This document shows, in pieces, positions 24,434 through 55,346 of a DNA stretch of 64,000 bases. How positions within the stretch are numbered: position 1 is the first letter of the stretch; each line of letters opens with the position of its first letter. Source of the stretch: Nitrospirota bacterium (GTDB lineage Bacteria > Nitrospirota > Thermodesulfovibrionia > Thermodesulfovibrionales > UBA1546). The notes beneath the pieces are model-generated. The model ran no database searches, was not told where the DNA came from, and saw nothing but the letters and a program-made list of their open reading frames with translations. A program made the position numbers and the translations under genes. The stretch is from NCBI GenBank assembly GCA_016195565.1, contig JACPZK010000029.1, forward strand, positions 1-64,000, given 5' to 3'.

Positions 24434-25465
24434 CTATCTGAGCATATAAAGCAGCATTATATTTGCGATATAAACTAACAATATCCCTACCGAATCCCAT
24501 GCAAGCAATAATGTTTTTTTCTCGGCACGGTAGGTCAAGCCGATAATCGCAATGGCTGTCATCAATATAGCAGATAAAGCAGAGATTATATGGCTTGCAT
24601 TGACGAATGACAGAATCGGGCCTTTCACAAAAAATATATCATCAACAGCGAGTATGAGTATATTGAAAATATTGCTTCCAAATAAATTTCCGACTGCAAG
24701 GTCTATCGCGCCCATCTTTACCGCTGAAATGGAAACTACCACCTCCGGAAGCGATGTGGAAAGCGCTATAAAAATGTTGCCTACAAATGTCTGGCCAAGT
24801 CCTGTTGTTTCGGCAATCCCCTCGCCTATCTTAGGGAGAAAAATGGCGGCAATAATAACAACCATCGCATTGATTCCATAATTGATAACCGCAGTCCTTG
24901 TGGAAATCTTTTCGTATCTCAATTCCTCAACCCTCTCTTTTACAAATTCCGCAATTCTCTTTCTCTCATAAACAAACAGCAGTCTCATCGCCACGAAATA
25001 AATAACCGGAACTATCAAACTATAAGGCCCAATCCACCCGAGAGGAGCAATACGATTTCCAGAAAACAGGCCTATGCTGATAATGCTCAAAAGAAGGATT
25101 CCAAATCCCGCAGAAAGGATATGCCCATGATGGGCTTTGGCTGATATTGGCATCGGCTTGTAAATAGCATCAAGAAAGGCAAGAATAAGCATATTAAAAA
25201 CACAGCTTCCAAGCACATCTCCTGCCGCAATATCAGGCACACCCGCATATGTGACCGAGCTTATCCCTGTAACAAGTTCCGGAAGCGATGTAACAGACGC
25301 CATGAGAACAATACCTATCCACGTCCTGCCCAACCCTGTTTTTTCAGCGATAATATCGCCGTATTTCGCAAGCTTTGTGCCGGAATAGACAATTAAAGAC
25401 GTACATGCTATAAACCCAGTCCAGAGAACCATTAAAACTCCCTCCAAATATTTTCGCCAGTCCAA
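24434..25465 (-). CDS. Calcium/sodium (CaCA family) antiporter
   Basis: 343 aa, about ten transmembrane helices in two inverted halves. The alpha-repeats are GIVLMASVTSLPELVTG with GDVLGSCVFNMLILA, and GNIFIALSTSLPEVVVSIS with GNLFGSNIFNILILA. These carry the acidic ion-binding Glu residues of CaCA exchangers. It moves Ca2+ (or another cation) against Na+ or H+. It is the third gene after the CBS and SLC13-type genes with gaps of a few bases, so probably one transcript. Confidence 0.9.
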   Translation of the reverse strand: MDWRKYLEGVLMVLWTGFIACTSLIVYSGTKLAKYGDIIAEKTGLGRTWIGIVLMASVTSLPELVTGISSVTYAGVPDIAAGDVLGSCVFNMLILAFLDAIYKPMPISAKAHHGHILSAGFGILLLSIISIGLFSGNRIAPLGWIGPYSLIVPVIYFVAMRLLFVYERKRIAEFVKERVEELRYEKISTRTAVINYGINAMVVIIAAIFLPKIGEGIAETTGLGQTFVGNIFIALSTSLPEVVVSISAVKMGAIDLAVGNLFGSNIFNILILAVDDIFFVKGPILSFVNASHIISALSAILMTAIAIIGLTYRAEKKTLLLAWDSVGILLVYIANIMLLYMLR

Positions 25466-25467
25466 AT

Positions 25468-26838
25468 CTATATCTTCAACACATAATATCTAAGCCAGAC
25501 ATATATCGTAGCAATAACAACAGTCATTATCATAATCGGCATTCCGTATGCCATGAACTTCATGAAAGAAATTCTTTTGCCTGCCTTTTCAGACATACCC
25601 ACAACAATAACATTCGCCGATGCGCCGATTGCAGTGCCGTTGCCGCCAAGGCATGCGCCTAATGCCAGAGACCACCAGAGGGGCATTAAATCAGGATGGT
25701 GCAGAAGCTGAATTCCTGACACATTGGGCCAGAGCTGTTTTGCCATGTCAATTATCAACGGGTTCATTGTTGCAACATAAGGGATGTTATCAATAAAGGC
25801 TGATGCAAATGCAGAAAACCACATGACAACCATGCTTGTTGCAAAGAGGTTGCCTTGTGTTATCTCGAGCACTTTTATAGACATCCATTTTATGAGCCCT
25901 ACTTTCACAACCCCGCCAATGATGATGAAAAGCCCTATGAAGAAAAATATTGTAGGCCATTCAACTTCTGCAAGAATATGGTGAGGCTCGCCTGTCTTTG
26001 AAAGCAGCAGCAAAAGCCCTGCTCCGAATAAAGCGATTGTTGCGGGCTGGAAATGGAGAACGCCGTGAAAAACAAAACCTGTCAGAACTATTCCCAGAAC
26101 TACGAGCGATTTTGTAAGCATGACAGGGTCTTTTATCGCCTCATTCTCGTCCATGGACATAATCCTCTGCTTGAGCTCTTCTCTTGTCTTGAGCTTTTTA
26201 CCCCAGATAAGTTTTATTGCGAAGAGATAGAAAACCATTGTTATAACAATTACCGGAGACAGATGGTATATAAAATCCATAAAATCGAGCTGAGCCTTTG
26301 AGGCGATCATTATGTTCGGTGGGTCGCCGATAAGGGTTGCAGTGCCTCCGATATTGGATGCGAATGCGCATGAAATCAGATAAGGCAATGGATCAACCTC
26401 AAGAGCGTCTGCAATAAGAATTGTAACAGGCACAATTAAAAGCACAGTAGTTACATTGTCAAGAAAGGCGCTCACTGCTGCTGTTACGATTGCGAATATC
26501 ACCAGTATCCTGAACGGCTCTCCCTTGCCCCATTTTGCGCTCTTGATAGCAATAAATTCAAAAACTCCTGTAGGCCGCATAAGATTGATTATTACCATCA
26601 TTGAAATGAGAAGGAATATGACGTTCCAGTCCACGCCAAATTCTTCTAAATGGAAGGCCTCATGCTGTTGTAGTATCTTTAGAACAAGCATAAGACCTGC
26701 GCCGAACAAAGCAATTATTGTCTTATGAATCTTCTCAGACACTATTACTGCATAGGCGAGCAAAAATATTGTCGTGGCTGTCCAGAAGGCTGCATCCATA
26801 ACAAACGGCTGTATCTGAACTGCTGCTTCCTGTGTCAT
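25468..26838 (-). CDS. SLC13/ArsB-NhaD-type ion transporter
   Basis: 456 aa, about eleven transmembrane helices. The family signature ASNIGGTATLIGDPPNIMIA is in the first half, and its inverted counterpart GACLGGNGTAIGASANVIVVG near the C-terminus. Family members transport dicarboxylates, sulfate, arsenite or Na+/H+; the substrate here is not determined. It overlaps the upstream CBS gene by 4 bp (ATGA), so a regulatory link to the CBS protein is likely. Confidence 0.85.
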   Translation of the reverse strand: MTQEAAVQIQPFVMDAAFWTATTIFLLAYAVIVSEKIHKTIIALFGAGLMLVLKILQQHEAFHLEEFGVDWNVIFLLISMMVIINLMRPTGVFEFIAIKSAKWGKGEPFRILVIFAIVTAAVSAFLDNVTTVLLIVPVTILIADALEVDPLPYLISCAFASNIGGTATLIGDPPNIMIASKAQLDFMDFIYHLSPVIVITMVFYLFAIKLIWGKKLKTREELKQRIMSMDENEAIKDPVMLTKSLVVLGIVLTGFVFHGVLHFQPATIALFGAGLLLLLSKTGEPHHILAEVEWPTIFFFIGLFIIIGGVVKVGLIKWMSIKVLEITQGNLFATSMVVMWFSAFASAFIDNIPYVATMNPLIIDMAKQLWPNVSGIQLLHHPDLMPLWWSLALGACLGGNGTAIGASANVIVVGMSEKAGKRISFMKFMAYGMPIMIMTVVIATIYVWLRYYVLKI

Positions 26839-27323
26839 GTATTACCCCCGCTGCTTTCATTAAGCATTGCCTTTGTAATGGCAAAGAATACTTCCCTTTC
26901 ATAAAGTATCCCTGAAACCTTGCCGTCTTTGCTTATGACAGGAAGTTTTCTGACATTGTTTTTAATCATATGGTCAACACACTCCATCAAAGGCGCATCC
27001 TCGTTTACGCTGATTACCTTCTTTGTCATAAGCTCTGAAACTTTTTTCCCCCCTGCCTTTTTTGCCAAATCCTCTACCATACCGTCCCATGTGAAATCTC
27101 CAAGATTCATCAAAGACATATACGAAGGGAATACTGCCTTTAAAATATCACCTATAGAGAGAAACCCTACCATCTTGCCCTTTTCGTCAAGGACTGGCAA
27201 CCCCTTAACTCCCATCCGCTCCTCATCCCTTTTTGCAGTCCTCAGAATATTCGCTGCTTCTTTCAAAGTCGTGTCTGGCTTCAGATATTCTTGAAGCGGT
27301 ATCATCAAATCTTTTGCTTTCAT
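26835..27323 (-). CDS. Paired CBS-domain protein
   Basis: 162 aa, two CBS motifs in tandem: about 1-70 (KDLMIPLQEYLKPDTTLKEA, GLPVLDEKGKMVGFLSIGDI) and about 95-155 (VSELMTKKVISVNEDAPLME, KLPVISKDGKVSGILYERE). CBS pairs bind adenine nucleotides and often gate transporters. Coupling to the SLC13-type gene suggests that here. A possible promoter TTGTAA-N16-TATACT lies at 27361-27388 on the minus strand. Confidence 0.85.
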   Translation of the reverse strand: MKAKDLMIPLQEYLKPDTTLKEAANILRTAKRDEERMGVKGLPVLDEKGKMVGFLSIGDILKAVFPSYMSLMNLGDFTWDGMVEDLAKKAGGKKVSELMTKKVISVNEDAPLMECVDHMIKNNVRKLPVISKDGKVSGILYEREVFFAITKAMLNESSGGNT

Positions 27324-27445: not shown

Positions 27446-28300
27446 TTACGCTTTAACAACAAGCACAGGGCACGGAGAATAGCCGATGACCTTTTCGGTG
27501 ACACTGCCCATGAGAAGCCTTTTCAGCCCTGTCCTGCCGTGAGAACCCATGATGATAACATCTGATTTTTCTTTTTTGGCGAGGTCTGTTATTACCTCAT
27601 AAGATTCGCCTTCGCCTGTAAAAGTTGATGTTTTGATATTAAATGTCTCTGCTTTTTTCTTAATTTCCGCAACAAATTCTTTTGCCTTTTTGGACATATC
27701 ATCAACAACCTGCGGAGCCTCTGCATAGAACTCTGAAGGCACATCCACTACGGAAATAACGAGCAGTTCGCCACCGTATGATTTTGCAAAATCTATGGCT
27801 TTATTTGCCGCAATATCGCTGTGTTTTGAACCGTCTGTTGCAAGGAGGATATTCTTCCATCCAACTGTAGTTCCTCCGGGCACGACAAGGATATCCTTTT
27901 TAGTATGCCCTATAACTCTTGCTGTTACGCTTCCTACAAAAACCCTTTCAATTCTCCTGAGTCCTCTTCTGCCCATCACTATTAAATCGCAGTTCTCCGC
28001 ATCGGCAAGGTCTACAATCCTTTCATGCGCCTCGCCTTCTTCACACACCGTCTTAAGCAAAACTTTTGCTTCCTTTGCCATTTTATCAGCCACTAAAAGA
28101 GCTTCATCGCATGGCTTTCTCATGGATGCCATGATATTACCAACTGCTACAAGGTCAAGGTCTCCCTGATATGGCGGGATAACGGAAACGGCTGTTATCC
28201 AACTCCCCTCATTCTGAGCAAGTTTAAATGCCTCTTTCAAGGCATGCATACTGCTTGCAGAGCCGTCAACTGCAGCTAAAATCTTTCTGTATCTTCCCAC
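27446..28300 (-). CDS. Tandem-domain universal stress protein
   Basis: 284 aa with two UspA domains. Domain 1 (about 1-140) has ILAAVDGSASS and GRRGLRRIERVFVGSVTARVIG. Domain 2 (about 145-284) has ILLATDGSKHS and the complete ATP-binding signature GSHGRTGLKRLLMGSVTEKV, ending CPVLVVKA. It is probably ATP-binding and cytoplasmic. It is the last gene of the 30.4-27.4 kb sigma-54-type operon, 2 bp after the TSUP gene. Confidence 0.92.
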   Translation of the reverse strand: MGRYRKILAAVDGSASSMHALKEAFKLAQNEGSWITAVSVIPPYQGDLDLVAVGNIMASMRKPCDEALLVADKMAKEAKVLLKTVCEEGEAHERIVDLADAENCDLIVMGRRGLRRIERVFVGSVTARVIGHTKKDILVVPGGTTVGWKNILLATDGSKHSDIAANKAIDFAKSYGGELLVISVVDVPSEFYAEAPQVVDDMSKKAKEFVAEIKKKAETFNIKTSTFTGEGESYEVITDLAKKEKSDVIIMGSHGRTGLKRLLMGSVTEKVIGYSPCPVLVVKA

Positions 28301-28302: not shown

Positions 28303-29391
28303 CTACGCCTCCCCGTGTTTCAGAACTTCTTTAGACATTTTACGCTCTGCCATAAGACCACTCCATATGGATTTTATAACAATGAATGCCCCGCTAAACA
28401 GCGCTAATATCATTATAATAAAACTTGTGTTTTTGAGTAATGTTATAATGCCTTCGCTTAAAGGCTGAATCAGACCGAGCTGCGATAGATATACAGGCAC
28501 CATTAAGGCACGGCTGAAAAGCACGATGACCATAATAACGCCCATGACCATCTTTATCATAAACGGCTTTACATATGTTGTGCCTATTGCTCCAAGCTGG
28601 ATTCCAAATAACGAGCCGGCAAGTATTATCATCGCAAGGCGGATGTCAACCAGACCATGAAGGGCAAATTTAAAAGAGCCTCCCATCCCCATAACAAACG
28701 CAATAACAAGCTCTGATGCAGATGCCATAAGGCTCGGCGCCCCAAGGACATATATCATAGCCGGCACTCCAATAAAACCTCCAACTGCAATCGTTGCAGC
28801 AAGCATGCCTGTTGCAAATCCAAGAGGTATTGTGAAAAGCACTGAAATACGGGCATCCAAGCTCTTGAAATAGACCATTGTGCCCGGAATGTTGACGGAC
28901 TGCACCCATTTTGCGAGTTTCGTTACCTTTTCCTCTTCACTGGTATTGCCGGATTTATATGTCTTCAATGCATCACGAAGGACAAAACCGCCCACTATCG
29001 CCAATATTACAACAAAGGCTGCGCTGACATAAAGATTTGAACCGGCATCTCCAAATGCCTTTTTGATATTTTCCTGTATGTGCGCTCCATAAAGAACGCC
29101 TGCCTCGGCTGATATTCCAAGCACTATGCCAATCTTCACATCCACCTGCCCGTATTTTGCCCGCTTGATTGCGCCAACTAATGCCTTCGGAAACTTATGG
29201 CACATATTGCTTGCAACAGCAACAAGCCCCGGAACTCCGAGGCTCATCATGGCAGGTGTAAGGACGAAGGCGCCTCCGGAACCTATGAATCCGCTTACAA
29301 GCCCCCCCACAAATCCGACAAAAAACAGATATGCAATCTTCATTGCATCAAGGTCAACAAAATTAGTTAATGCTCCAACCACATCATGCAT
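28303..29391 (-). CDS. TauE/SafE (TSUP) family permease
   Basis: 362 aa, eight to nine transmembrane helices. The internal duplication typical of TSUP is visible: FVGGLVSGFIGSGGAFVLTPAMMSLG in the first half and GFATGMLAATIAVGGFIGVPAMIYVLG in the second. Family members export sulfite, sulfoacetate or related anions. It differs from the two TSUP proteins at 47-51 kb in having a long cytoplasmic loop (about 155-185) and an extended C-terminus. In an operon with Usp-type genes. Confidence 0.88.
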   Translation of the reverse strand: MHDVVGALTNFVDLDAMKIAYLFFVGFVGGLVSGFIGSGGAFVLTPAMMSLGVPGLVAVASNMCHKFPKALVGAIKRAKYGQVDVKIGIVLGISAEAGVLYGAHIQENIKKAFGDAGSNLYVSAAFVVILAIVGGFVLRDALKTYKSGNTSEEEKVTKLAKWVQSVNIPGTMVYFKSLDARISVLFTIPLGFATGMLAATIAVGGFIGVPAMIYVLGAPSLMASASELVIAFVMGMGGSFKFALHGLVDIRLAMIILAGSLFGIQLGAIGTTYVKPFMIKMVMGVIMVIVLFSRALMVPVYLSQLGLIQPLSEGIITLLKNTSFIIMILALFSGAFIVIKSIWSGLMAERKMSKEVLKHGEA

Positions 29392-29392: not shown

Positions 29393-29653
29393 TTATTTCA
29401 CCTCCTTTTTCTTCTTTGCGGCCTTGATACCCAGCACTGTCCAGAAGCTTCCTGTAAACGCGCCGTGAAAATATGAGAAGACAAATGCCGTTATAATAGG
29501 AAGAAATGCGTACATGCCGCCCTTCCCAAAATTGCTGTTAATAACATCCTGATTAAGCAAAAGCTCTGCATAAAGCGCTATTGAAACAATCCCCATGAAG
29601 ATCATCTTCCCGATGGGTTTCTTCCTGACATTTTTGTTGTATCCTGACGCCAT
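29393..29653 (-). CDS. Small two-helix membrane protein next to TSUP permease
   Basis: 86 aa from the ATG at 29653, which has GGAGGAG directly upstream (the frame opens earlier, at 29695). Two hydrophobic segments (MIFMGIVSIALYAELLL and YAFLPIITAFVFSYFHGAF) have positively charged ends. It lies one base before the TSUP gene and could be an accessory subunit. I do not recognise the family. Confidence 0.65.
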   Translation of the reverse strand: MASGYNKNVRKKPIGKMIFMGIVSIALYAELLLNQDVINSNFGKGGMYAFLPIITAFVFSYFHGAFTGSFWTVLGIKAAKKKKEVK

Positions 29654-29675
29654 CTCTCCTCCGTTAATCTTTAAG

Positions 29676-29867
29676 TTATTTGCTGCCTGCAGCATTCACT
29701 GCGAGATCAGCCGTATAGTCTCTGCCGGGCCTCCCGGCTGTTTTCTCCGCGGACTGTGCATCTTCCTTGAGTATCTCCCTTGCCGTTTCAAACTCTCCTG
29801 CCTCTGCAAATGTTGTTGCAGTCATGAGCGTCTCAAATCTTTTTGTGAGTTTCTTCAGTCCTTTCAT
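29676..29867 (-). CDS. 63-aa protein with the FAEA...ETARE motif
   Basis: 63 aa behind AAGGAGGGG. The stretch RFETLMTATTFAEAGEFETA (continuing REIL) matches segments inside the two UspA-like proteins at 29885-30367 and 51337-51810 (shared pattern FE-x-[LVI]-M-x-A-x-x-FAE-x-x-[EDF]-x-E-T-x-R-E). It is a stand-alone version of that segment, predicted as a helical hairpin. The C-terminal tail is polar. Function unknown; the strong ribosome-binding site and operon position argue that it is real. Confidence 0.65.
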   Translation of the reverse strand: MKGLKKLTKRFETLMTATTFAEAGEFETAREILKEDAQSAEKTAGRPGRDYTADLAVNAAGSK

Positions 29868-29884: not shown

Positions 29885-30367
29885 TTACGCCTCAGCCTTT
29901 GCAGCCATCATCGTAACGATTGGTTTTGTTATGTTTTTGAGCATCTTTCTGCTGTCCAATGCTTTTTTATCACCTGAAAGATTAGGGCTTAATAGAATCA
30001 TGTCAATGCAGGGCTTGTCTTTGAGGAAGTCTTTCATAACCTGTATTGCTTCGCCTGTTTTAACCTCAGATGAGAAATCAATGCCTGCATCCCTGCATTT
30101 TTCGGAAAACTCGTTTATCTTTTCCTCTGCTGTTTCTTTTATCTCTTTCTCCTGTCCATGCATAAGCTCCCTCATTGTTTCAACATCTCCAGCCTCTGCA
30201 AATGCTGCCGCTGCCATTACATCTTCAAAAGTCTCCATTGCGCGCTTGCCGTAAACCATCAGCACAGCCACCCCTGCATTCAGAGCCTTTGCAAGTTCAA
30301 GCACGTACGAGAAGCCCTCATCACAGTCTTCACCGCCTTTTGTTACAAATAAAAGTTTTTCCTTCAT
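29885..30367 (-). CDS. UspA-like protein with embedded FAEA...ETMRE segment
   Basis: About 160 aa from the ATG at 30367, with GGAG 9 bp upstream; in-frame ATGs also exist at 30373 and 30382. The N-terminal beta-alpha unit (KLLFVTKGGEDCDEGFSYVL) and the C-terminal MILLSPNLSG...PIVTMMA resemble Usp, but the usual G-2x-G-9x-G ATP signature is absent. The middle contains TFEDVMAAAAFAEAGDVETM (then REL). It is the first gene of an operon led by a sigma-54-type promoter at 30416-30431 and is paralogous to the protein at 51337-51810. Confidence 0.7.
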   Translation of the reverse strand: MKEKLLFVTKGGEDCDEGFSYVLELAKALNAGVAVLMVYGKRAMETFEDVMAAAAFAEAGDVETMRELMHGQEKEIKETAEEKINEFSEKCRDAGIDFSSEVKTGEAIQVMKDFLKDKPCIDMILLSPNLSGDKKALDSRKMLKNITKPIVTMMAAKAEA

Positions 30368-30415
30368 TTCCATTGACTCCATTTGATGCCTATTCGCTGA
30401 TTCTGATAGACATAT

Positions 30416-30431
30416 ACCAAGAGGCGTGCCA
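30416..30431 (-). promoter_or_regulatory. Sigma-54 (-24/-12) promoter
   Basis: The minus strand reads TGGCAC-GCCTC-TTGGT, matching TGGCAC-N5-TTGCW with one mismatch and correct GG-to-GG spacing. It lies about 50 bp before the UspA-like start. NtrC-type activators encoded at 31.9 and 52.0 kb are the likely partners. Confidence 0.7.
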
Positions 30432-30484
30432 GAAGGAAATGTGTTGAAATAAAAGGATTATTTATTGGGGATGGAACAACTTAC

Positions 30485-30501
30485 TGTTTCAGGTTTAAAC
30501 A
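30485..30501. promoter_or_regulatory. Putative enhancer dyad TGTT-N9-AACA
   Basis: TGTTTCAGGTTTAAACA lies 54 bp upstream of the sigma-54 promoter. It has the same 4-9-4 layout as the duplicated sites at 51911-51930 and 52006-52025. Suitable as an NtrC-type activator site; inference only. Confidence 0.45.
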
Positions 30502-30627: not shown

Positions 30628-31134
30628 ATGAAGAAAGATTATAGAATTTCAAAGGCCTCCGTTGAGGGAATGAGCGACGCGGACTATTTTGGGGCTTTAA
30701 TCGAACCGATATGGCCCGATAGTTCAGTGGAAGATGAACTTGAACACATTTCCTACGGCACACCTGGTCAGCGCGCACTTTATGCTACAACTCTATTTAT
30801 GCGCGAGGCTGACAATGGCGGCATAGAACAATTCTTTTGGAACAGCAGCAGTCTTTATTCCAACGAAGTATTGGAAGGATTTAAACTTCTCGGCATGACG
30901 GAATATTATGAAACGCCGAATAAGGCTCTAACTTTCTTCCCTGACAGCAAGGGCCCATCTGACTGGATAGAGCGGCAAAAATATATAGATAACAGAAAAG
31001 CTGAAATCAAGTCATTTTTTGAACCTCTGAATGATGTCATTTACGACGAGGAAAGGCTATATCCGTATTTCCACAAGTATGTCGACACTCATCCCGAGGA
31101 TTTCTTTATTGAAAATGAAAACAACAGCAGCTAA
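30628..31134 (+). CDS. DMP19/DUF4375 family protein
   Basis: 168 aa. The segment PGQRALYATTLFMREADNGG, followed by IEQFFWN, is the family core. The family takes its name from a Neisseria protein, DMP19, reported as a DNA mimic; most members are uncharacterised. The acidic composition fits the mimic idea. It is the only plus-strand gene in this stretch and lies between the sigma-54 operon and a toxin-antitoxin pair, so it is probably a mobile insert. A TTGACA at 30545-30550 may be its -35. Confidence 0.75.
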   Translation: MKKDYRISKASVEGMSDADYFGALIEPIWPDSSVEDELEHISYGTPGQRALYATTLFMREADNGGIEQFFWNSSSLYSNEVLEGFKLLGMTEYYETPNKALTFFPDSKGPSDWIERQKYIDNRKAEIKSFFEPLNDVIYDEERLYPYFHKYVDTHPEDFFIENENNSS

Positions 31135-31210: not shown

Positions 31211-31633
31211 TTATGCCTTAAGAATTTTCAAAAGTTTTGCAGTTGTATACAATTCAACTCCTGAGCCTTTGAAATCGCCGTCGTTGCTCCAGACCGGCAC
31301 ATTCAATTTCATTGCAAGGGCAAGAAGTTCCACATCATCTTCATCCCTTCCAGACATCTTTTTTGCAGCCTTAGGAATAAAATCTTCATAGAAATGCTTA
31401 GGATAAATTTTCAGCGGAAGCAGTTTTAATTGTGATTCAAGGATTTCTTCGCTCAGACTGTATTGCTCCGCAATAACACCCAGATATTCTCTCACTTCAT
31501 CAATATTGAACTGTGCAGTTACTACCTCTATTTCTTCTATGAGGAATATACGGAGCGCTGCCTTGCCTGCAACAGCCGACAAGATTACATTAGCGTCTGC
31601 GGCGAGTTTTCTTAAATGAGCCGAAGCCTGCAA
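31211..31633 (-). CDS. PIN-domain toxin (VapC-like ribonuclease)
   Basis: 140 aa. Acidic PIN residues are visible in ADANVILSA, in the mid Glu/Asp region and in GRDEDDVELLALA...WSNDGDF. The TTG start at 31633 follows GAGGAA and lies 44 bp inside the antitoxin gene, in another frame. Tight coupling of toxin to antitoxin is expected. VapC-type toxins cut tRNA or rRNA. Confidence 0.75.
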   Translation of the reverse strand: MQASAHLRKLAADANVILSAVAGKAALRIFLIEEIEVVTAQFNIDEVREYLGVIAEQYSLSEEILESQLKLLPLKIYPKHFYEDFIPKAAKKMSGRDEDDVELLALAMKLNVPVWSNDGDFKGSGVELYTTAKLLKILKA

Positions 31634-47345: not shown

Positions 47346-48254
47346 TCAATTACCGCCTAAAAGTATGGACGGTCTCAGGACAAGCTGAAGGGTCATCTGA
47401 ACAGCCACCAAGAGGAGTATGAATGCAAGAAACAGTTTCAGATGTTCTCCCTTCAATTTCCTTCCAAAGACCACACCTATCTGGGTTCCGATTGTGGACC
47501 CCATGAGCAGGAGCACAGCAAGTATAAAGTCCACCGAATGGTTGGTATATGCCTGAAGAAAAGTGACCTCTATGGATGTAAATAAAATTATGAATAGACT
47601 TGTCCCTATCACAACGTGCAAGGGCATTCTCAACATATATACCATCACGGGAATCATCAGGAATCCGCCGCCAACACCCATTATGCCGGCCAAGATTCCT
47701 ACAACCACTCCGAGCAAGATGGGAACCAGCAGAGAATGACTAATGCCTGACTTTTCAAAATATGTCTGGAGCGGAAGGTTTTTAAGAAAAACCGCCAATC
47801 CTGACTCTTTTTCTACATGTTCTACGGCCATTTTTTTTCTCTTTAGCTTTGAAAGGGTTTCAGAGAGCATGTATATGCCCACGATCCCGAGTAAAAGCAC
47901 GTAGGTTACTTTTATCACAAAGTCCGCATTGCCCAGTATATTCAGGATGTTAAGGGCTTCTGCCCCTATAAACCCTCCAAAGAAACTTCCACCGAGAAGA
48001 CACCATCCCATCTTGAGATCCACATTGCCGAGCTTATGGTGTGCATAGGCGCCGGAGGTCGCCGACCCCACCATCATATTAGTACCTGTGGCGACAGAAA
48101 CAGTGGGTGATATGCCCAGCATCATAAGCAGCGGTGTAATTAACCATCCGCCGCCTACACCAAACAATCCGGTAAGTATTCCCACAATCAACCCAATCCC
48201 TATTGTGATAAGACTGTTGACGCTGGTTAAAGCAACGGGTAAGTAGAGATGCAT
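47346..48254 (-). CDS. TauE/SafE (TSUP) permease, copy 2
   Basis: 302 aa, eight transmembrane helices. The internal repeats are VGILTGLFGVGGGWLITPLLMMLG and VGILAGIMGVGGGFLMIPVMVYML. It is clearly paralogous to the TSUP at 50394-51311 (same length, and shared QAYTNHSVDFILAVLLLMGS region). It exports anions, perhaps sulfite or sulfur-containing organic acids. The substrate is not readable. Confidence 0.9.
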   Translation of the reverse strand: MHLYLPVALTSVNSLITIGIGLIVGILTGLFGVGGGWLITPLLMMLGISPTVSVATGTNMMVGSATSGAYAHHKLGNVDLKMGWCLLGGSFFGGFIGAEALNILNILGNADFVIKVTYVLLLGIVGIYMLSETLSKLKRKKMAVEHVEKESGLAVFLKNLPLQTYFEKSGISHSLLVPILLGVVVGILAGIMGVGGGFLMIPVMVYMLRMPLHVVIGTSLFIILFTSIEVTFLQAYTNHSVDFILAVLLLMGSTIGTQIGVVFGRKLKGEHLKLFLAFILLLVAVQMTLQLVLRPSILLGGN

Positions 48255-48278: not shown

Positions 48279-48704
48279 CTAATTATGACTGACCACCAAC
48301 ACAGGGCAGGGGGCATTGTGGATGACCTTTTCAATTGTATTGCCGCCGAAAATCTTTAACAGGCGCTTTTTCTTTTTCTGAGAGCCGAGAATAATGAGGT
48401 CGCATCTTTCCTCTTCAGCGACTTCTATAATATTTTTAGGCGCATCTCCTTCTTCAAGCCTCGTTTTGATGAGCGTTCTTTCAGCCTCCGCAATATCCTG
48501 AAACTCTGATACCGCTCTATTACCCCCGCTGTCAAGGACATCTCCGATATTCCTGATGCCGGTAAGGTTAAGCTCTCCCTCATTCGGAGGGATGACTTTA
48601 ACGACTGTCACCCAGCATTGCTCGTCTCCGGCAAGTTTCAGCCCCTCGGCAAGAACATTCTTTGATCCGTTTACCGCTATCAGTATTTTTCTATATCCTT
48701 TCAT
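48279..48704 (-). CDS. Universal stress protein, single domain
   Basis: 141 aa from the ATG at 48704 (MKGYRKILIAVNGSKN); the open frame extends to 48797 inside the neighbouring gene, but the Usp domain begins here. The G-x2-G-type ATP signature is degraded (LGSQKKKKRLLKIFGGNTIE), so ATP binding is doubtful. It ends NAPCPVLVVSHN. 5 bp after another Usp gene. Confidence 0.88.
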   Translation of the reverse strand: MKGYRKILIAVNGSKNVLAEGLKLAGDEQCWVTVVKVIPPNEGELNLTGIRNIGDVLDSGGNRAVSEFQDIAEAERTLIKTRLEEGDAPKNIIEVAEEERCDLIILGSQKKKKRLLKIFGGNTIEKVIHNAPCPVLVVSHN

Positions 48705-48709
48705 CTGTT

Positions 48710-49567
48710 TTATTTCACCGCAAGCACCGGACATTTGGCATTCATTATTACCCTTTCCGTTGTGCTCCCCATAATCGCCTTGCTCACCCCGCGCCATCCG
48801 TACGTTCCGATGACAATGAGGTCGTTTTTCAGGCCTGATGATACCTTGACTATCTCTTCAGAAGGGCTGCCCTCCCTGATTTCTGTTTTGACGGTAATGC
48901 CCTGCGCAGATGCAATAGACTGAGCGGTATTGAGTATCTTTTCCGCTTCCTGCATCATGCTTTTTCGTATTGATGAGGTCATGAAAAACTCCACCATCTC
49001 CTCATACCGGGGCATTGAATAGAGGACTGTAACCTCAGAAGAGTCTATTGCCGATAACTGACAGGCTCTTGTGAGTGCGGTCTTGCTGAATTCCGAGCCG
49101 TCAAAAGGGACGAGAATAGATTTATAGGTGCCTGTACATTCTGTGCATGGTTTCTTCACCACTAAGACATCAACTTTTGAATTCACTATCACCCGTGAGG
49201 TCACACTCCCCATAAGCAGCCTGTTGAGTCCCCGCCTGCCATATGTCCCCATGACGATGAGGTCTGCGTTCTTCCCTTCAGCAACATCAAGAATAACCTC
49301 AGGCGCTTCTCCTTCGCAGAGGAGCGAATCAGCTTCTATGCCGAACTCCGAAACTATTTTCTCTTTTGTCTCCTGACAGAGTTTCCCTCCGATTTTCAGG
49401 CGCTTCTCCTGCTGTTCCGGAGCAATGCCGAATTCTTCGGTATCGAAGAAGACAGCGCGGGCAAGGAATAGTTTTCCGCCGTGCCTTTTAACCCAATTAG
49501 CAGCCTCAATTAGCGCTGCCTTGCTGTATTTCGAATCGTCATAGCCGACTAATAGTGTTTTATACAT
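48710..49567 (-). CDS. Tandem-domain universal stress protein
   Basis: 285 aa, two Usp domains. Domain 1 starts YKTLLVGYDDSKYSKAALIE and has GTYGRRGLNRLLMGSVTSRV. Domain 2 starts YKSILVPFDGSEFS and has GTYGWRGVSKAIMGSTTERV. Both carry near-complete nucleotide-binding signatures. The CTEC pair between the domains (KKPCTECTGTY) could be redox-active. In the nine-gene operon. Confidence 0.92.
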   Translation of the reverse strand: MYKTLLVGYDDSKYSKAALIEAANWVKRHGGKLFLARAVFFDTEEFGIAPEQQEKRLKIGGKLCQETKEKIVSEFGIEADSLLCEGEAPEVILDVAEGKNADLIVMGTYGRRGLNRLLMGSVTSRVIVNSKVDVLVVKKPCTECTGTYKSILVPFDGSEFSKTALTRACQLSAIDSSEVTVLYSMPRYEEMVEFFMTSSIRKSMMQEAEKILNTAQSIASAQGITVKTEIREGSPSEEIVKVSSGLKNDLIVIGTYGWRGVSKAIMGSTTERVIMNAKCPVLAVK

Positions 49568-49569: not shown

Positions 49570-50394
49570 TTAATGCGCGCCTCCGCCTTTTCTGAAGACC
49601 ATGCCGACACCGAAGCCTGCACCCAGCGCCGCAACTATGGATATGATTCCGTATAAAACGCCGTTGTTTTTCGCCATACCTGCTAAACTCTTTACAATGC
49701 CTACCTGTTCTACAAGCACGCTTGATTGTGCAGTCTCAGCAACTTTCCCATTTTTTACTGCATACACAGTAACCGTATAAGTCCCAGGAGGCGCCTGATA
49801 AGGCCACTGGGTAAGGATGTAGTATTTCCTTTTTCCGCCCTCATGGCTGAATGATATTTTCCCTGAAGACATTGCGTAGAGTTTTGAATCCTCTTTAAAC
49901 TTCACAAACTCTTCAAACCATTTTGTTTTATCCGACTCATTGGCAACAGGGCTCATTCCCACATGTTTTTCGAGCGCAGGATACCCGATAACATACTTCT
50001 CCATTTCATCCTTGTTTAATATATCCTCGATTTTTTTAGTACTGTGAAGGGCATAGAAGTTCGGTACATGCTCAAGATTCAATGTCCCTACATTCATCCA
50101 CAAGAACCCTGCCGCTTTGCCTTTTTCCTTCATCACTTGATGCCCTTCCGGAGAGGTGATTTTAACGATTAGGTCAACATCCTGATTAGATATTCCGCTC
50201 GCACTTACCGTACTGCCATGATAGAAGAAGTCTATTGTGATATGGTCGTGATTTGCGTTAATCGTAAGTTCTGCCGATGCATTATCTGCAAATGTAAAAT
50301 TAAAAATTAAAAATTCAAAAATAAGGAATACCAAAATTTTGAATTTTGCACTTTGCATTTTGAATCTTGAATTTTGAATCTTGAATTTTTTCAT
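49570..50394 (-). CDS. TIGR02186-type membrane-anchored protein
   Basis: 274 aa. The N-terminus is built from heptamer repeats (KKFKIQNSRFKMQSAKFKI) followed by a hydrophobic signal core. A periplasmic beta-rich domain (DHITIDFFYHGSTVSASG, WMNVGTLNLEHVPNFYALHS) matches the Alph_Pro_TM/TIGR02186 family as I know it. A C-terminal transmembrane helix (GIISIVAALGAGFGVGMVF) completes it. These proteins commonly accompany TSUP permeases; here the start overlaps the TSUP stop behind GGAGG. Possibly an accessory subunit. Confidence 0.78.
   Translation of the reverse strand: MKKFKIQNSRFKMQSAKFKILVFLIFEFLIFNFTFADNASAELTINANHDHITIDFFYHGSTVSASGISNQDVDLIVKITSPEGHQVMKEKGKAAGFLWMNVGTLNLEHVPNFYALHSTKKIEDILNKDEMEKYVIGYPALEKHVGMSPVANESDKTKWFEEFVKFKEDSKLYAMSSGKISFSHEGGKRKYYILTQWPYQAPPGTYTVTVYAVKNGKVAETAQSSVLVEQVGIVKSLAGMAKNNGVLYGIISIVAALGAGFGVGMVFRKGGGAH
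50296..50394. repeat. Heptanucleotide arrays at the start of the TIGR02186-type gene
   Basis: Two arrays of AATTTTG/AATCTTG/AAATTAA-type 7-bp units lie at about 50296-50320 and 50338-50394. They encode the positively charged start and part of the hydrophobic signal core of the protein. Confidence 0.8.
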
Positions 50395-51311
50395 TAGTGT
50401 CCTCCAGCCTGAGACAAAAGCAGGGAAGGCGCCATAGTAAGTTCAAAGATTATCTTTACGGTAACAACAAGTACAATAACCGCAAGGATAATCTTGAGCT
50501 GCTCGCCTTTAAGCTTTCTTCCGAAAACAGCGCCGACCTGCGCCCCTATGGTAGAGCCAAGGAGTAAAAGCACTGCAAGCACGAAATCAACATTGTGGTT
50601 TGTGTATGCCTGAAGAAAGGTGACCTCTATACAATTAAAAAGAATCTGGAAAAGGCTCGTGCCTACGACAACGTGCATCGGCATCCTCAGAATATAGACC
50701 ATGACCGGCACCATCAGAAAGCCGCCGCCAACGCCCATGATAGCGGCAAGCACCCCAACAAAGCCTCCAAAGACAATCGGTATTAAAGCAGAATGGGTAA
50801 CTCCTGATTTTTCATAACGTGTCTTAAGCGGCAAAGACTTGAGTAAACGGGCAACGCCCGATTCTTTCTCGGATTTTGCGTCTTCAGCCTTGTTTTTCTT
50901 CATGCTCTGAATGCTCTCAACAAACATGTATGCTCCTGCAATGCCAAGCATCAGGACATAGGTCATTTTTATAACAAAGTCGGCATTCCCCATCTCCTTG
51001 AGTATCTTTATTGCCTGAACGCCAAAGAGACCGCCGATGAAACCGCCGATGAGTAAGTGAAAACCCATTTTAAAATCCACGTTGCCGACCTTCCAGTGGG
51101 CGTATGTGCCTGATGTGGAAGCGGCGACAATCTGGTTTGAGTCTGTAGCCGCTGCAACTGTTGCAGGAATGCCTAACATAATAAGGAGCGGGGTCATCAG
51201 AAAGCCGCCGCCAACACCAAACAGCCCTGATAGCAGACCTACCACCAATCCAAGCCCGATAGGGATGATAATGTTAATACTTGTTAATGCTACGGGTAAA
51301 TACAGATACAT
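50394..51311 (-). CDS. TauE/SafE (TSUP) permease, copy 3
   Basis: 305 aa, eight transmembrane helices. Repeats GLLSGLFGVGGGFLMTPLLIMLG and GVLAAIMGVGGGFLMVPVMVYIL. Close paralogue of copy 2, including the QAYTNHNVDFVLAVLLLLGS end region. Two TSUP paralogues in one operon may form a heteromer or handle two substrates. Followed directly by the TIGR02186-type gene. Confidence 0.9.
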   Translation of the reverse strand: MYLYLPVALTSINIIIPIGLGLVVGLLSGLFGVGGGFLMTPLLIMLGIPATVAAATDSNQIVAASTSGTYAHWKVGNVDFKMGFHLLIGGFIGGLFGVQAIKILKEMGNADFVIKMTYVLMLGIAGAYMFVESIQSMKKNKAEDAKSEKESGVARLLKSLPLKTRYEKSGVTHSALIPIVFGGFVGVLAAIMGVGGGFLMVPVMVYILRMPMHVVVGTSLFQILFNCIEVTFLQAYTNHNVDFVLAVLLLLGSTIGAQVGAVFGRKLKGEQLKIILAVIVLVVTVKIIFELTMAPSLLLSQAGGH

Positions 51312-51336: not shown

Positions 51337-51810
51337 TCATGCGTGCTGCAATTCCTGTTTTGCTATAGTCACTACAGGCCGTGAAGCAGTTTTTACAAGT
51401 CTTTGCAGTTCTCTTGCAGACATATTTCCGTTTTTCGTAATGCTCGGGCTTAAAAGCACCATGTCAACAGCAGTTTTGTTCTTAAGAAAACCGCTTATAG
51501 CCCCGACAATGCCGTCTTGTGCTGTTTGCAGATTCGCCTCAATGCCCGATGTTTTACACTGATCAATCATGCGGTTTGATTGTCCTTCCGGATTTTCTCT
51601 CCGCATAACTTCCCTTGCAGTCTCATACTCGCTTTCCTCTGCAAAGGCTACAGCAGTCATGATGTCTTCGAACCTTTCTTCAAGCCTCTCCTTGTTGACC
51701 AGCAGTATCGTAATGCCGTCCTCAAGGGTCTGTGCGAGGTCAATTGCATAGGTCAAACCCTCATCACGATCCTCATTTTGATAGGTAACGAATAAAAGCT
51801 GTTTTTTCAC
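51337..51810 (-). CDS. UspA-like protein with FAEE...ETARE segment
   Basis: 157 aa. KQLLFVTYQNEDRDEGLTYA and the end VVTIAKQEL show a Usp-like frame without the ATP signature. The middle contains RFEDIMTAVAFAEESEYETA (then REVM), shared with 29676-29867 and 29885-30367. First gene of the nine-gene operon and directly downstream of a sigma-54-type promoter. Confidence 0.7.
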   Translation of the reverse strand: MKKQLLFVTYQNEDRDEGLTYAIDLAQTLEDGITILLVNKERLEERFEDIMTAVAFAEESEYETAREVMRRENPEGQSNRMIDQCKTSGIEANLQTAQDGIVGAISGFLKNKTAVDMVLLSPSITKNGNMSARELQRLVKTASRPVVTIAKQELQHA

Positions 51811-51848: not shown

Positions 51849-51864
51849 AGCATAAGGGATGCCA
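51849..51864 (-). promoter_or_regulatory. Sigma-54 (-24/-12) promoter of the nine-gene operon
   Basis: The minus strand reads TGGCAT-CCCTT-ATGCT, matching TGGCAC-N5-TTGCW with two mismatches and the correct GG/GC spacing. It lies about 39 bp before the UspA-like start and just downstream of a kinase/NtrC gene pair. Confidence 0.65.
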
Positions 51865-51910
51865 GATGTAACACTTTGATAAATAAGGATAAATTAATGA
51901 GGCAAATGAT

Positions 51911-52025
51911 TGTGTTTAGAATATGAACAGATGGGATGATGCAGATACTAAAAGATAACTCCTTGAATTAAAAAGATATTTCTGACAGGAATGGAAACGA
52001 GGCTATGTGTTTAGAATATGAACAG
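51911..52025. promoter_or_regulatory. Duplicated 20-bp activator site (putative NtrC-type enhancer)
   Basis: An identical 20-mer, TGTGTTTAGAATATGAACAG, occurs at 51911-51930 and 52006-52025, 95 bp apart (about nine helical turns). Each holds a TGTT-N9-AACA dyad. They lie about 50 and 145 bp upstream of the sigma-54 promoter, the usual range for enhancer sites. Binding by the regulator encoded next door (52034-53371) is inferred. Confidence 0.6.
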
Positions 52026-52033: not shown

Positions 52034-53371
52034 CTATTCTTCCTTCAATATCTTCCAGAGACTCGTTCTTGATATGCCAAGCGCTTCAGCAGCCTTTGAG
52101 CGGTTCCCTCCGAGCATCTTCACGACCTTTTCAACATACTCTTTAACAAGCTCGTCGATAGTCAGTACCTTGTCGGGATCAATAGTGTCGATCTGGAGAA
52201 CACGGATAGCTCTCGGCAGGCTTTCAGGTGTGATAAGCCCGGTTTTTTCAAGTATGATTGCCCTCTCAATAATATTTTCAAGCTCCCTTACATTGCCGGG
52301 GAAACTGTAGTTTATGAGAATATGCATCGCATCATCAGTAAATCCGGCAATCTTTTTGCTGGACTTCGGAAGATGTTTTTTGAGAAAGAAATAACTGAGA
52401 GGCTTGATATCATCTATCCTCTCTCTCAAAGGAGGTATATATATTTCCATTATGTTGAGCCGATAATAAAGGTCTTCCCGGAATCTGCCTTCCGAGATAA
52501 GCCTTTTAACATTCTGGTTAGTGGCCGCAATAAACCTCGCATCAACTTTAATCGGTCTTGTTCCTCCAACCCGATAGAACTCTCCTTCTTCAACGACTTT
52601 AAGAAGCTTTGCCTGCAGGTTCGTCGGCAGCTCGGCAATCTCGTCAAGAAAAAGAGTGCCCGTGTCCGCAATCTCGACAAGCCCCTGCTTTGTTGAAACC
52701 GCGCCTGTAAAAGCGCCCCTTTCGTAACCAAATAGCTCGCTCGCAAGCAGTTCTTCCGTGAAAGTCGCGCAGTTAATAGATAGGAAGGGCATATTCTGCC
52801 GCTTGCCGGTAAAGTGGATTGCTTTTGCAATGAGGCTTTTGCCCACGCCTGTCTCACCGGTCAGCAGAATATTGACATCTGAACCTTTCAGTTCCTCAAC
52901 CCTCTCAAGAATGCGTCTCATGCCTTCGCTCCTGGCAATAATAGATATCTTTTTATCCATGCCTACAAAGGTGCGTAAGGCGATGTTTTCTTTTTTGAGG
53001 CTCCTCTGCTGAAAGATCTTTCCGGCTTTCAGCAGAAGTTCGTCAAGGTCAAAAGGCTTGGTAATATAATCAACAGCGCCTTTTTTCATAGCTTCGACAG
53101 CTGAACTGATACTGCCGAATCCGGTAATGATAATCACTTCTGTTTCAGGATGATGGACTCTTACTTTATCAAGCAACTCTATCCCGCTCATGCCAGGCAT
53201 TTTAATATCGGTGATAAGGACATCAAAATGGTCTTTCTCTATCACCTGAAGGGCCTCGGTTCCATTTCTGGAATAAGCGACTTTATAACCCTCTTCCTGA
53301 AGGGTGTCAACAATATTGTTGAGCGTAATCTCTTCGTCTTCAGCTACGAGTATTTTAAACGCCATAATCAA
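52034..53371 (-). CDS. NtrC-family sigma-54-dependent response regulator (copy B)
   Basis: 445 aa. Receiver (VLITDIKMPGMSGIELLDKV), AAA+ domain with GETGVGKS, GAFTGA and GTLFLDEIAEL, and C-terminal Fis helix-turn-helix GGNRSKAAEALGISRTSLWKILKE. It is strongly similar throughout to copy A at 31934-33262; the DNA-recognition helices are almost identical, so the two may share sites. It follows its kinase gene by 31 bp and ends next to the duplicated 20-mers. Confidence 0.95.
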   Translation of the reverse strand: MIMAFKILVAEDEEITLNNIVDTLQEEGYKVAYSRNGTEALQVIEKDHFDVLITDIKMPGMSGIELLDKVRVHHPETEVIIITGFGSISSAVEAMKKGAVDYITKPFDLDELLLKAGKIFQQRSLKKENIALRTFVGMDKKISIIARSEGMRRILERVEELKGSDVNILLTGETGVGKSLIAKAIHFTGKRQNMPFLSINCATFTEELLASELFGYERGAFTGAVSTKQGLVEIADTGTLFLDEIAELPTNLQAKLLKVVEEGEFYRVGGTRPIKVDARFIAATNQNVKRLISEGRFREDLYYRLNIMEIYIPPLRERIDDIKPLSYFFLKKHLPKSSKKIAGFTDDAMHILINYSFPGNVRELENIIERAIILEKTGLITPESLPRAIRVLQIDTIDPDKVLTIDELVKEYVEKVVKMLGGNRSKAAEALGISRTSLWKILKEE

Positions 53372-53402: not shown

Positions 53403-54959
53403 TCATACTTTACCTGCTGATTTGGGCAGTGTGATGATGAATGTCGTTCCACTGCCTTCTTCGCTTTCAACTGTTATCTCTCCTTTATGTTTCTGAATAA
53501 TATTGAAAACTATTGCAAGTCCTAATCCGGTGCCTTTGTCTTTTGTTGTATAGAAGGGCTCGAAAATTTTCTCTACTGCTTCTTGTGAAATGCCGCGCCC
53601 TGTATCAGACAGTCTAATCCTGATATTTGCATCTTCTTCAACGGCTCTCACAATGATACTCCCCTCGCCTGAAACAGCATCTATGGCGTTGGATATGAGA
53701 TTGATAAAAACCCTCTCCATCTGCTCCTGATCTGCGTAGATGACAATTTCTTCGGGATGGAACTCAAGATGAAACCTGATGCTGTCAATAGACCTTGAAC
53801 CCCCGATGTGCTTATAGACCCCGTTTACAAGGCTGCGCAATTCAACCGGCCTGAGATTGGGCTCTCTTCCCCTTGCAAATTCAAGGAGGTCGCTCACAAT
53901 GCTTTTAACCCGCATGGTCTGCCCGAATATATCATCAAGCCCCTTCTTAATAAATGCAGGGCACTCATCTTCTGATTTCTTCAATAGCCTCTGCGCGGTC
54001 GTATAAATGTTATTCAACGGGTTGTTGAGCTCATGTGCAACGCCGGATGCAAGAGTGCCAATCGCCGCAAGCTTTTTGCTCTGGAGGAGTTCTTTTTCCC
54101 TCTGAATTAATTGCTCCTCCATCGAGTTAAATTTTTGTATGAGCACACCGACTTCATCATTGTCACCCCACCTCAGCCTGCCGACTGACATCTTTGAGAA
54201 ATCGCCGCCGCCGGTTCTTTCAACAACTGTGGTTAACAAGTTTAGTCTTTTGACTACATTGCCTGTCACATACAGGAACGCCCCTCCTCCCGCAATAAGA
54301 AACACTGTGAAAAATATCAGTATGGCTATCTGTGATCTGCGGATAAAGCCATCAACCTTTTCTCTCGCTATCTTGTCCAGTTCCTTTGACATTACAAGAA
54401 TTTCTTCACCATCCTTCCTGAGTGTGCGTATCTCGGAATCAAGCTCATAAAGGTTTCTGATTGCCGGGTTATTTTTTTTGAGGTGAAAAATGTTTTCAAT
54501 GAGTTCTGCATTGACAAGCGGCCTTTCGAGAAATGTAGTCTCGATTATCCTGAAAAAAATGGAGTATTGCATGTGAAAGGGCTTAATTCTGCCGAACTCG
54601 TTCCTGAAATCATAAACAATCTTTTCTATATGATTAAACCTCCGGCTGTATTCATCAATTTTTTTCCTGAGGCTTAAAAGGCCTCCGGTGCTGTCCGGAT
54701 ACCTGTTTTCCGCCAAAATATCGTCCAATTGTTTCAGGTAATCACGAACACTTTTGACTTCATTCAGATCACCAGTAAGAAAAAAGTTCTTTTCGTGCCT
54801 CCTTAACTGAAGCGACTTGCTACTGATTGTATCAGTGGTCTCAAGAAAGACTATCTCTTTCTTTATCTGTATGAAGTTTATATACTCAAAAGCCGCAAGC
54901 ACGGCAATTATAAAGGCGCTTGTCAAAAAGCTCAGGATTATCTTCTTTTTCAGGGACAT
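53403..54959 (-). CDS. Membrane sensor histidine kinase (copy B)
   Basis: 518 aa with the same layout as copy A: a transmembrane helix, an all-helical periplasmic sensor, a second transmembrane helix, HAMP, the His box GVAHELNNPLNNIYTTAQR, and ATPase motifs NAIDAV, DTGRGIS and TTKDKGTGLGLAIV. Shared sensor motifs with copy A (KSLQLRRHEKNFF and TTFLERPLVNAELI) show a common origin. The signal is unknown. Confidence 0.95.
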   Translation of the reverse strand: MSLKKKIILSFLTSAFIIAVLAAFEYINFIQIKKEIVFLETTDTISSKSLQLRRHEKNFFLTGDLNEVKSVRDYLKQLDDILAENRYPDSTGGLLSLRKKIDEYSRRFNHIEKIVYDFRNEFGRIKPFHMQYSIFFRIIETTFLERPLVNAELIENIFHLKKNNPAIRNLYELDSEIRTLRKDGEEILVMSKELDKIAREKVDGFIRRSQIAILIFFTVFLIAGGGAFLYVTGNVVKRLNLLTTVVERTGGGDFSKMSVGRLRWGDNDEVGVLIQKFNSMEEQLIQREKELLQSKKLAAIGTLASGVAHELNNPLNNIYTTAQRLLKKSEDECPAFIKKGLDDIFGQTMRVKSIVSDLLEFARGREPNLRPVELRSLVNGVYKHIGGSRSIDSIRFHLEFHPEEIVIYADQEQMERVFINLISNAIDAVSGEGSIIVRAVEEDANIRIRLSDTGRGISQEAVEKIFEPFYTTKDKGTGLGLAIVFNIIQKHKGEITVESEEGSGTTFIITLPKSAGKV

Positions 54960-55346
54960 ACTGCCCTATATTATCACCAATGAATTGAAAAATGAAAATG
55001 CCCTCTGCGGACAGTCGGGCATATAAGTATTCTTTCAGAAAAATGGGGAAACTGGAAACACTACAGAAAGATTAAAGGGTTAGTCTTCTTCGGCTCGAAA
55101 ATAAATCTGCAAAAGTAAACTGCTAAGCGCTTCCACTACTTTGAACTATTTGCCTTAACCCATTCACCTATTCACCTGTCTTTCTTCCCTTCCGAAGTTC
55201 TCGCAGCATCAGCAAAGAGCCGCCCCAGCACTTTTCGAAGCGTAAGAGAAGAGTCGCCCGTGGCGACTGCACTTCTGAACTTTTTAATTGTTGCTAATGT
55301 GGGAAGTGGCGTTTGACTATACCCCAATCTATTTCGGGCATATGAG

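Follow-up and report, generated by a model that had tools for sequence, protein, structure and literature searches.

A 64,000-nucleotide stretch of the genome of a Nitrospirota bacterium (GenBank assembly GCA_016195565.1, contig JACPZK010000029.1, positions 1 to 64,000; hereafter the window) carries two modules, A and B, each with a membrane histidine kinase (HK), an NtrC-type regulator and an operon encoding a Usp-like protein with a FAEA motif (FAEA_A or FAEA_B), a TSUP permease and further Usp proteins. Both modules share an operator, TGTT-N9-AACA, which an initial annotation made from the sequence had missed. At the level of sequence, comparison with relatives establishes an architecture of two kinase/regulator pairs, one operator type, near-fixed spacing and conserved operons. 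We interpret the modules as two related operons of one regulon, which would serve the controlled uptake of a sulfur oxyanion through a Usp-gated permease, and we give this interpretation a probability of about one half. Searches of one open-access library returned no published description of the arrangement.

Shared operator and promoter geometry

Both modules lie where the initial annotation had placed them, with kinases of 518 aa and GAFTGA in the translation of each regulator. HK-A (33259–34815, minus strand) has HAMP, HisKA and HATPase domains by the open reading frame list and Pfam, preceded by an N-terminal sensor region that has no family assignment, and HK-B (53403–54959, minus strand) was assigned by similarity to HK-A. 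A receiver (REC), a GAFTGA AAA+ domain and a Fis-type helix-turn-helix (HTH) make up both NtrC-A (31934–33262, minus strand; Pfam) and NtrC-B (52034–53371, minus strand), the latter assigned by its 64% full-length identity to NtrC-A, and both translations contain the recognition helix SRTSLW.

The window contains five copies of TGTT-N9-AACA against 1.09 expected, a number reached in none of 100 shuffles; the copy closest to each FAEA promoter starts ~65–71 bp before the -24 element, and three of the five lie upstream of the two FAEA promoters. Pattern scanning placed one, an upstream activating sequence also identified by conservation, at 30485–30501 in module A and two in module B, a distal site at 52008–52024 and a proximal one at 51913–51929, the 17 bases of which are identical (no strand is assigned to any of the three). 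Conservation likewise identified the sigma-54-type promoters, which are CTGGCACGCCTCTTGGT at 30416–30432 (minus strand), with a -12 element of TTGG and not TTGC, before the FAEA_A gene (29885–30382, minus strand), and CTGGCATCCCTTATGCT at 51849–51865 (minus strand) before the FAEA_B gene (51337–51810, minus strand).

We examined the corresponding regions in relatives, which are mostly metagenome assemblies, with some genomes present in two collections; loci were chosen by their FAEA protein and not by its neighbours, and duplicates were removed by identical sequence ends only, such that all counts include close relatives and are not counts of independent events. The operator was detected in 20/37 distinct regions upstream of FAEA_A (0.35 expected from shuffles) and 35/77 upstream of FAEA_B (0.5 expected), and all the remaining spacings between N3 and N15, twelve in number, were near chance, with at most 1/37 in class A and at most 5/77, at N7, in class B. 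It stands 69–71 bp before the -24 TGG in 17 of the 18 A regions having both elements, and 65–70 bp before it in 15 of the 23 such B regions. TGGCAY-N5-TTG is present in 32/37 A regions (0.05 expected), where the -12 type is TTGG in 20, TTG[AT] in 11 and TTGC in one, and TGGCAY-N6-TGC in 46/77 B regions (0.12 expected). Shifting the TGGCAY-TTG spacing by one base either way gave no match in classes A, B or C, the last being a third arrangement described below.

The initial annotation had proposed a sigma-54-type promoter before each FAEA protein, and it is this conservation in relatives, not scanning of the window, that bears the proposal out. Within the window the canonical TGGCAYN5TTGCW gave three matches against 6.55 expected, with no enrichment, and a crude position-weight scan built from the general sigma-54 consensus did not distinguish the window from shuffles; a joint consensus matched only the two promoters above (0.14 expected), which is circular as it was built from these two. 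An operator-plus-promoter composite, by comparison, had 77 matches in 58/199 related genomes, with one for a reversed control, and exactly two in the window's genome, both at modules A and B. For 45 of the 77 a FAEA gene follows within 700 bp, the motif-less case of G076 included. A looser composite gave five matches in the window's genome, the modules' two and three elsewhere, against four for its control.

RpoN is encoded in the window's genome, so that together with the upstream palindromic site and the -24/-12 promoter the features of an NtrC-type system are present. Known NtrC/sigma-54 systems share the REC-AAA+(GAFTGA)-HTH regulator, the palindromic upstream operator and RpoN, as well as the GG-N10-GC promoter seen in module B. 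They differ from the system described here, which has two kinase/regulator pairs per operator type, and although the sigma-54 -12 element follows a TTGC rule, those of classes A and C are mostly TTGG or TTG[AT].

Class C was recognised among loci L181–L195, which are 15 of 20 fetched regions, picked at weak or short FAEA matches irrespective of their neighbours; 13/15 have an NtrC relative above 300 bits and 12/15 a TSUP relative above 100 bits. In several of them the kinase/NtrC pair is divergent from its target operon, which encodes a FAEA microprotein, a FAEA-Usp fusion, the small membrane protein TM100, a TSUP of the module A type (TSUPa) and a Usp. The recognition helix is SRTSLW in 25/25 A and 50/52 B regulators, with SRTTLW in the other two, and DRVSLW in all 26 class C regulators. 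We tested the class C intergenic regions, using 16 of 17 as one was too short, and detected TTGC-N5-GCAA in 14/16 (0.25 expected) and TGTT-N9-AACA in 1/16, with TTGC-N5-GCAA in none of the 37 A or 77 B regions. Earlier class C upstream regions, taken from unsuitable starts, gave the promoter, sought in its TTGC form, in 4/30 (2.3 expected) and the operator in 2/30 (0.33 expected), which is little above chance. Since class C differs from A and B in both respects, the predicted operator and the recognition helix change together.

Relationship, content and conservation of the modules

The initial annotation had described the modules as duplicated, which holds for the regulatory head (identities of 52% for the kinases, 64% for the regulators and 37% for the FAEA proteins) and fails for the TSUPs, with TSUPa 29–31% identical to the two module B permeases, TSUPb1 and TSUPb2 (29% for TSUPb1). 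The tandem Usps of the two modules are likewise only 32% identical. Sequence comparison assigns the duplication to kinase, regulator and FAEA protein, with effectors more distantly related. We rejected a simple duplication of whole modules on the ~30% identity of the TSUPs.

In a regulator tree of 69 sequences, a random thinning of 103, a branch with an SH-aLRT support of 100 has all 26 A rows on the same side, and a constraint that keeps the B rows together was not rejected (p-AU 0.852). The A rows stem from at least six families, so the split is old; by these sequence relationships the two modules' regulators, and likewise their FAEA proteins, are old paralogues. Receiver helix 1 is 43% identical between NtrC-A and NtrC-B and the recognition helix 83%, which suggests two inputs onto one output. 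It is very improbable that A and B were acquired separately and lie side by side with no shared control: such an origin would fit the 29–32% identity of their TSUPs and tandem Usps and the many loci with a single module (both TSUP types are present in 23/157 loci, many of which are short), but operator and recognition helix are the same and promoter geometry is similar across the class, and the A and B regulators are old sister groups.

We also observed near-identical bases directly before both kinase starts, TTGGTGATAATATAGG[AG]CAGTATG, at 34813–34836 and 54957–54980 (minus strand); further upstream the HK-A and HK-B sequences diverge.

Downstream of FAEA_A, all on the minus strand, lie a 63-aa FAEA-motif microprotein (29676–29867), TM100 (29393–29695, start possibly 29653; no Pfam family, recognised as an open reading frame with relatives, whose ends resemble HGxFTGxFWTVxGxEA), TSUPa (28303–29391; PF01925) and a tandem Usp with two ATP-binding motifs (27446–28300). 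Locus scans show two further genes to be optional members of module A, a CBS-domain protein (26835–27323) and a CitMHS/DASS-type permease (25468–26838) that also exceeds the Pfam cut-off for Na_sulph_symp. A Na/Ca exchanger-family protein (24434–25465) follows the CitMHS gene; elsewhere among the scanned loci it was seen near a module only in L069.

Module B, also on the minus strand, continues from FAEA_B with TSUPb1 (50394–51311), an Alph_Pro_TM protein (PF09608; 49570–50394), a tandem Usp with two ATP-binding motifs (48710–49567), a single Usp without the ATP motif (48279–48797), TSUPb2 (47346–48254), which is a tandem copy of TSUPb1 with 65% identity, a second histidine kinase, HK-C (45912–47342), a single-domain response regulator (45544–45915; domain scan) and a PEP-synthase-like protein (42977–45547); the others were assigned with Pfam. 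This run of nine genes, from 51810 down to 42977, has intergenic gaps of -88 to +25 bp, in agreement with the nine-gene operon of the initial annotation. The Alph_Pro_TM model shows a beta-sandwich flanked on either side by helices, and a fold search with it returned generic beta-sandwich matches only (query TM-scores 0.13–0.29). In the PEP-synthase-like protein Pfam matched the ATP-binding (PPDK_N) and phosphohistidine domains and left the PEP/pyruvate-binding C-terminal domain unmatched; it does not have the domain set of a PEP synthase.

A toxin-antitoxin pair and a DMP19 gene had been reported between regulator and target in module A. Their position is confirmed, with a PIN_2 toxin (31211–31633, minus strand) between NtrC-A and the FAEA_A operon, a candidate antitoxin (31590–31874, minus strand) with only a sub-threshold Phd/YefM match, and a DMP19-like gene (30628–31134; Pfam) on the opposite, plus strand. 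Homologues of the toxin and of DMP19 were absent from all 157 loci scanned with both, and on this ground we rejected these two as parts of the system, the antitoxin lying outside the query set; toxin, antitoxin and DMP19 are therefore probably bystanders.

The initial annotation had staked its proposal on co-occurrence of these genes in other genomes, and the order HK/NtrC-FAEA-Usp-TSUP-Usp does recur in Nitrospirota. Among loci L044–L180 with enough flanking sequence, FAEA_A is preceded by NtrC in 23/25 and the kinase in 22/25, and followed by TSUP in 25/25, the tandem Usp in 24/25, the microprotein in 22/25 and TM100 in 21/25. For FAEA_B the counts were 48/64 for NtrC, 45/64 for the kinase, 55/59 for TSUP, 52/59 for Alph_Pro_TM, 55/59 for the tandem Usp and 50/59 for the single Usp. 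The triad of kinase, response regulator and PEP-synthase-like protein was found in 23/157 loci, many being too short to show it.

The FAEA protein is encoded in 78/199 relatives (E up to 1e-15) and 58/295 genomes drawn from the phylum. In a species collection, 165 stretches encode a FAEA relative, the best 80 of which were kept as 77 loci; 74 of these 77 have Nitrospirota-type titles and one a Desulfobacterota-type title, these being the two groups in which the initial annotation had suggested a neighbourhood search. Besides the 74, module B was seen in L157, titled Syntrophaceae, and in L169 and L178, titled Actinomycetes, the last two with a class C module too; transfer or mis-binning may account for these.

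Two further gene groups recur in the scanned loci. In many of them the single Usp is separated from the second kinase by a MshEN/DUF202 gene pair (for example at 3967–6811 of L044), which has members in 33 loci, some from the same genome twice (Pfam was run on the 547-aa protein only). A TSUP-Usp cluster, at 4048–6276 of L045 and in 8–10 loci, consists of a regulator labelled GntR-type from reading its sequence, a TSUP of a second type, a membrane protein of 138 aa and a Usp.

Usp proteins, the FAEA element and the transported ion

The AlphaFold model of FAEA_B (pLDDT 77) has a Usp fold, and rows 1–23 of its structural comparison are Usp structures with Z of 12.5 to 9.9, 1mjh and 2z08 being counted as such from a table in PMC3673472 and not from their titles. 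The FAEA motif forms two extra helices (43–58 and 62–70) after strand 2; their confidence is ~60–74 and their placement provisional. FAEA_A reached 21.7 bits against the PF00582 cut-off of 24 and FAEA_B was unmatched, and for this reason we call these proteins Usp-like. The ATP-binding motif G-2X-G-9X-G(S/T), given as absent from the UspA subgroup (PMC3673472), is in none of 36 FAEA_A (the window's copy included), 80 FAEA_B and 56 single-Usp proteins and is present in 59/60 and 68/68 tandem Usps. As the tandem Usps have the motif and the FAEA proteins do not, each operon probably pairs an adenylate-binding Usp with a non-binder, although a Usp with a degenerate motif can nevertheless bind ATP (PMC3673472).

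A close known likeness is TeaD-TeaABC of Halomonas elongata, where, as here, a Usp is co-encoded with a permease; regulation of the permease in our system is proposed by analogy. TeaD may regulate TeaABC, as cited in PMC5549992, and the structures matched by the FAEA_B model include 3hgm, that of TeaD (Foldseek rank 3; Z 11.3). Unlike TeaD-TeaABC, the modules have a TSUP and not a TRAP permease, several Usp-type proteins, the FAEA element, their own HK/NtrC pair and a sigma-54-type promoter.

The microprotein gene in module A, which the initial annotation had also missed, repeats the FAEA motif. It was identified by sequence and profile comparison and has a ribosome-binding-like stretch, AGGAGGGG, read directly; against its closest relatives it differs at 28, 21 and 66 sites in codon positions 1, 2 and 3, the pattern of a translated gene. 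A microprotein search of the window's genome found three proteins, all at the modules, and a two-row FAEA profile added three that match only weakly (E 0.002 to 0.02), including a Usp at 36943–37485. No Pfam or NCBIfam family was above cut-off for the window copy.

A group scan matched TPR_4 to 9/29 microproteins at E up to 1. Five two-motif microproteins among the 29 gave weak TPR matches, all below cut-off (at best TPR_4 with 26.7 bits against 27, and TPR_12 with 3.7e-5), no TPR profile matched any of the 23 one-motif relatives at E up to 0.05, and the window copy had one unrelated weak match. As no tandem TPR units exceed the Pfam cut-off, we rejected assignment of the microprotein as a TPR protein and take the likeness of the motif to TPR as no more than a lead. 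Searches of PDB sequences with the proteins labelled A3 and A5 and with TSUPb1 returned nothing relevant, A3 matching the Usp 1q77 at E 0.66. In L217, L218 and L221 a motif-less Usp-like gene under the shared operator is followed by genes for a 71–75 aa protein, a TSUP, an Alph_Pro_TM protein and a Usp; the 71–75 aa protein (LEAAAIAEMR[IV]D[KI]ARE) resembles a diverged FAEA microprotein.

The FAEA element takes three forms: it stands alone as a microprotein, lies within a Usp-like domain, or precedes a different Usp-like domain in a fusion. It is tempting to see in it a new detachable helical-hairpin adaptor that would build an adenylate-sensing Usp complex on TSUP or SulP for energy-gated sulfur-oxyanion uptake, in sigma-54 regulons with co-varying operators and a TTGC-breaking -12 element. 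We hold this composite proposal to be doubtful, the more so as the one-motif microproteins have no TPR match of their own.

With PF01925 matched over most of its profile and well above cut-off, the permeases are TSUP proteins, and the window's genome encodes six of them, three at the modules. The initial annotation linked them to export of sulfite or another anion, which we do not follow: 'Sulfite exporter' is a Pfam name only, and in some relatives a SulP gene is under the shared operator or behind the FAEA gene. In G075 and G111 the operator-promoter composite is followed by a Usp gene and then a SulP sulfate permease, reading as two pieces in G075. In L164 a FAEA_B gene, whose operator has the same 17 bases as that of module B in the window, is directly followed by two SulP genes in the place of TSUP. 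Furthermore, five SulP genes lie 2.6–4.8 kb from a FAEA gene, with 0.33 expected within 12 kb under uniform placement, among just 18 genomes that hold both families; in the window's genome no SulP was detected at E up to 1e-20. The Usp-SulP operons, the SulP pair and the proximity of SulP and FAEA genes shift the balance from export to uptake, and sulfur-oxyanion uptake is favoured on sequence evidence.

Stress-driven export, in which the kinases would sense periplasmic or redox stress and TSUP would expel sulfite or another toxic anion, can appeal to TauE, the namesake of the TSUP family and a proposed sulfite exporter (PMC3949148), to the occurrence of dsrA in nearly all relatives (182/199) and to the Usp genes, which suggest stress. 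We think it unlikely, given that some relatives have SulP behind the shared operator or in place of TSUP, that PMC3949148 itself suggests import for an Archaeoglobus TauE homologue, and that PMC5840216 counts TSUPs among the candidates for sulfate transport in sulfate reducers, while calling function prediction not yet feasible. The link to stress is one that we infer from the Usp name. Carriers of dsrA handle sulfite, and with dsrA near-universal its comparison with FAEA neither supports nor refutes a sulfite role.

The permeases might instead carry a non-sulfur ion, such as an organic acid or bicarbonate, with the modules forming a general energy-status response that switches permeases. The CitMHS permease in module A, the PEP-synthase-like enzyme in module B, the SulP family, which carries other anions too and is not sulfate-specific, and a related operator before a symporter operon in genus g14 all speak for this; we regard it as rather doubtful, because linkage to CitMHS and to the SSF symporter is found in few loci and TSUP plus Usp forms the constant core.

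Several observations tell against sulfur-oxyanion uptake under one regulon, beginning with that breadth of the SulP family. The exact operator is absent from about half of the upstream regions, and L164 has no match to the TGGCAY promoter. Of the five SulP genes close to FAEA, three belong to genus g18, one of them beside a FAEA fragment at a contig end, and in G156 the SulP gene is on the opposite strand. FAEA (78/199) does not follow dsrA (182/199), so sulfite reduction as such does not require the system; nor can the FAEA motif be essential, as it is absent from some orthologous operons (the Usp-like protein lacks it in 4/15 of the weak-match loci). Finally, 14 of the 32 composite matches not adjoining FAEA genes were inspected, and only five lead to Usp-like/TSUP (three motif-less operons) or Usp-SulP genes (two); five others precede DUF294/SSF-symporter operons, all in g14 and with a TGTTAC..GTAACA variant, and four precede other genes.

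The g14 loci (L225–L229), from five genomes of a genus that is perhaps Thermodesulfovibrio, have this variant and a sigma-54-type promoter before genes for a 230-aa protein, a membrane protein of 98 aa and a symporter of the SSF family, and in L225, L226 and L229 a cNMP/CBS/DUF294 protein heads the operon (Pfam was run on L225 only). It is probably another sigma-54 transport operon.

For the controlled-uptake reading we propose the following scheme. HK-A or HK-B would phosphorylate its partner NtrC, and either NtrC, using the same recognition helix, would bind TGTT-N9-AACA and open sigma-54 polymerase. Each operon would yield a TSUP permease, a tandem Usp with ATP motifs and a FAEA Usp-like protein without one, and module A additionally the free FAEA microprotein and the small membrane protein. 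The Usps may gate the permease by adenylate level, as TeaD reportedly does for TeaABC, with the FAEA helices as a possible docking element, and the two kinases, their partner-docking surfaces having diverged, would bring two separate signals to the same operator. The role would most likely be the controlled uptake of a sulfur oxyanion, sulfate or sulfite, by a bacterium with a dissimilatory sulfur metabolism.

Other window genes and significance

Two putative DNA methyltransferase genes, at 55378–57759 and 6851–9291, are each followed by a possible restriction enzyme gene, as judged from translations, and each has a TSPPY motif; the translation of the former starts with a MerR/excisionase-like helix-turn-helix. 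At 35813–36307 a 164-aa HAD-domain protein resembles the end of a P-type ATPase and is perhaps a remnant.

The modules share PF01925 with TauE/SafE (TSUP) proteins of sulfate reducers, which are candidate sulfur-oxyanion transporters (PMC5840216), and differ from them in the regular pairing of TSUP with Usp, FAEA and Alph_Pro_TM or TM100 behind sigma-54-type promoters. Import of sulfate and sulfite, and its matching to energy, is poorly known in dissimilatory sulfur bacteria, where TSUPs are abundant and largely uncharacterised according to the same paper. The modules offer a defined candidate regulon, with operator, promoter, activator, permease and Usp set, and classes A and B against class C provide a naturally replicated test of the pairing of recognition helix and operator, alongside a conserved microprotein and a conserved deviation of the -12 element from the sigma-54 consensus.

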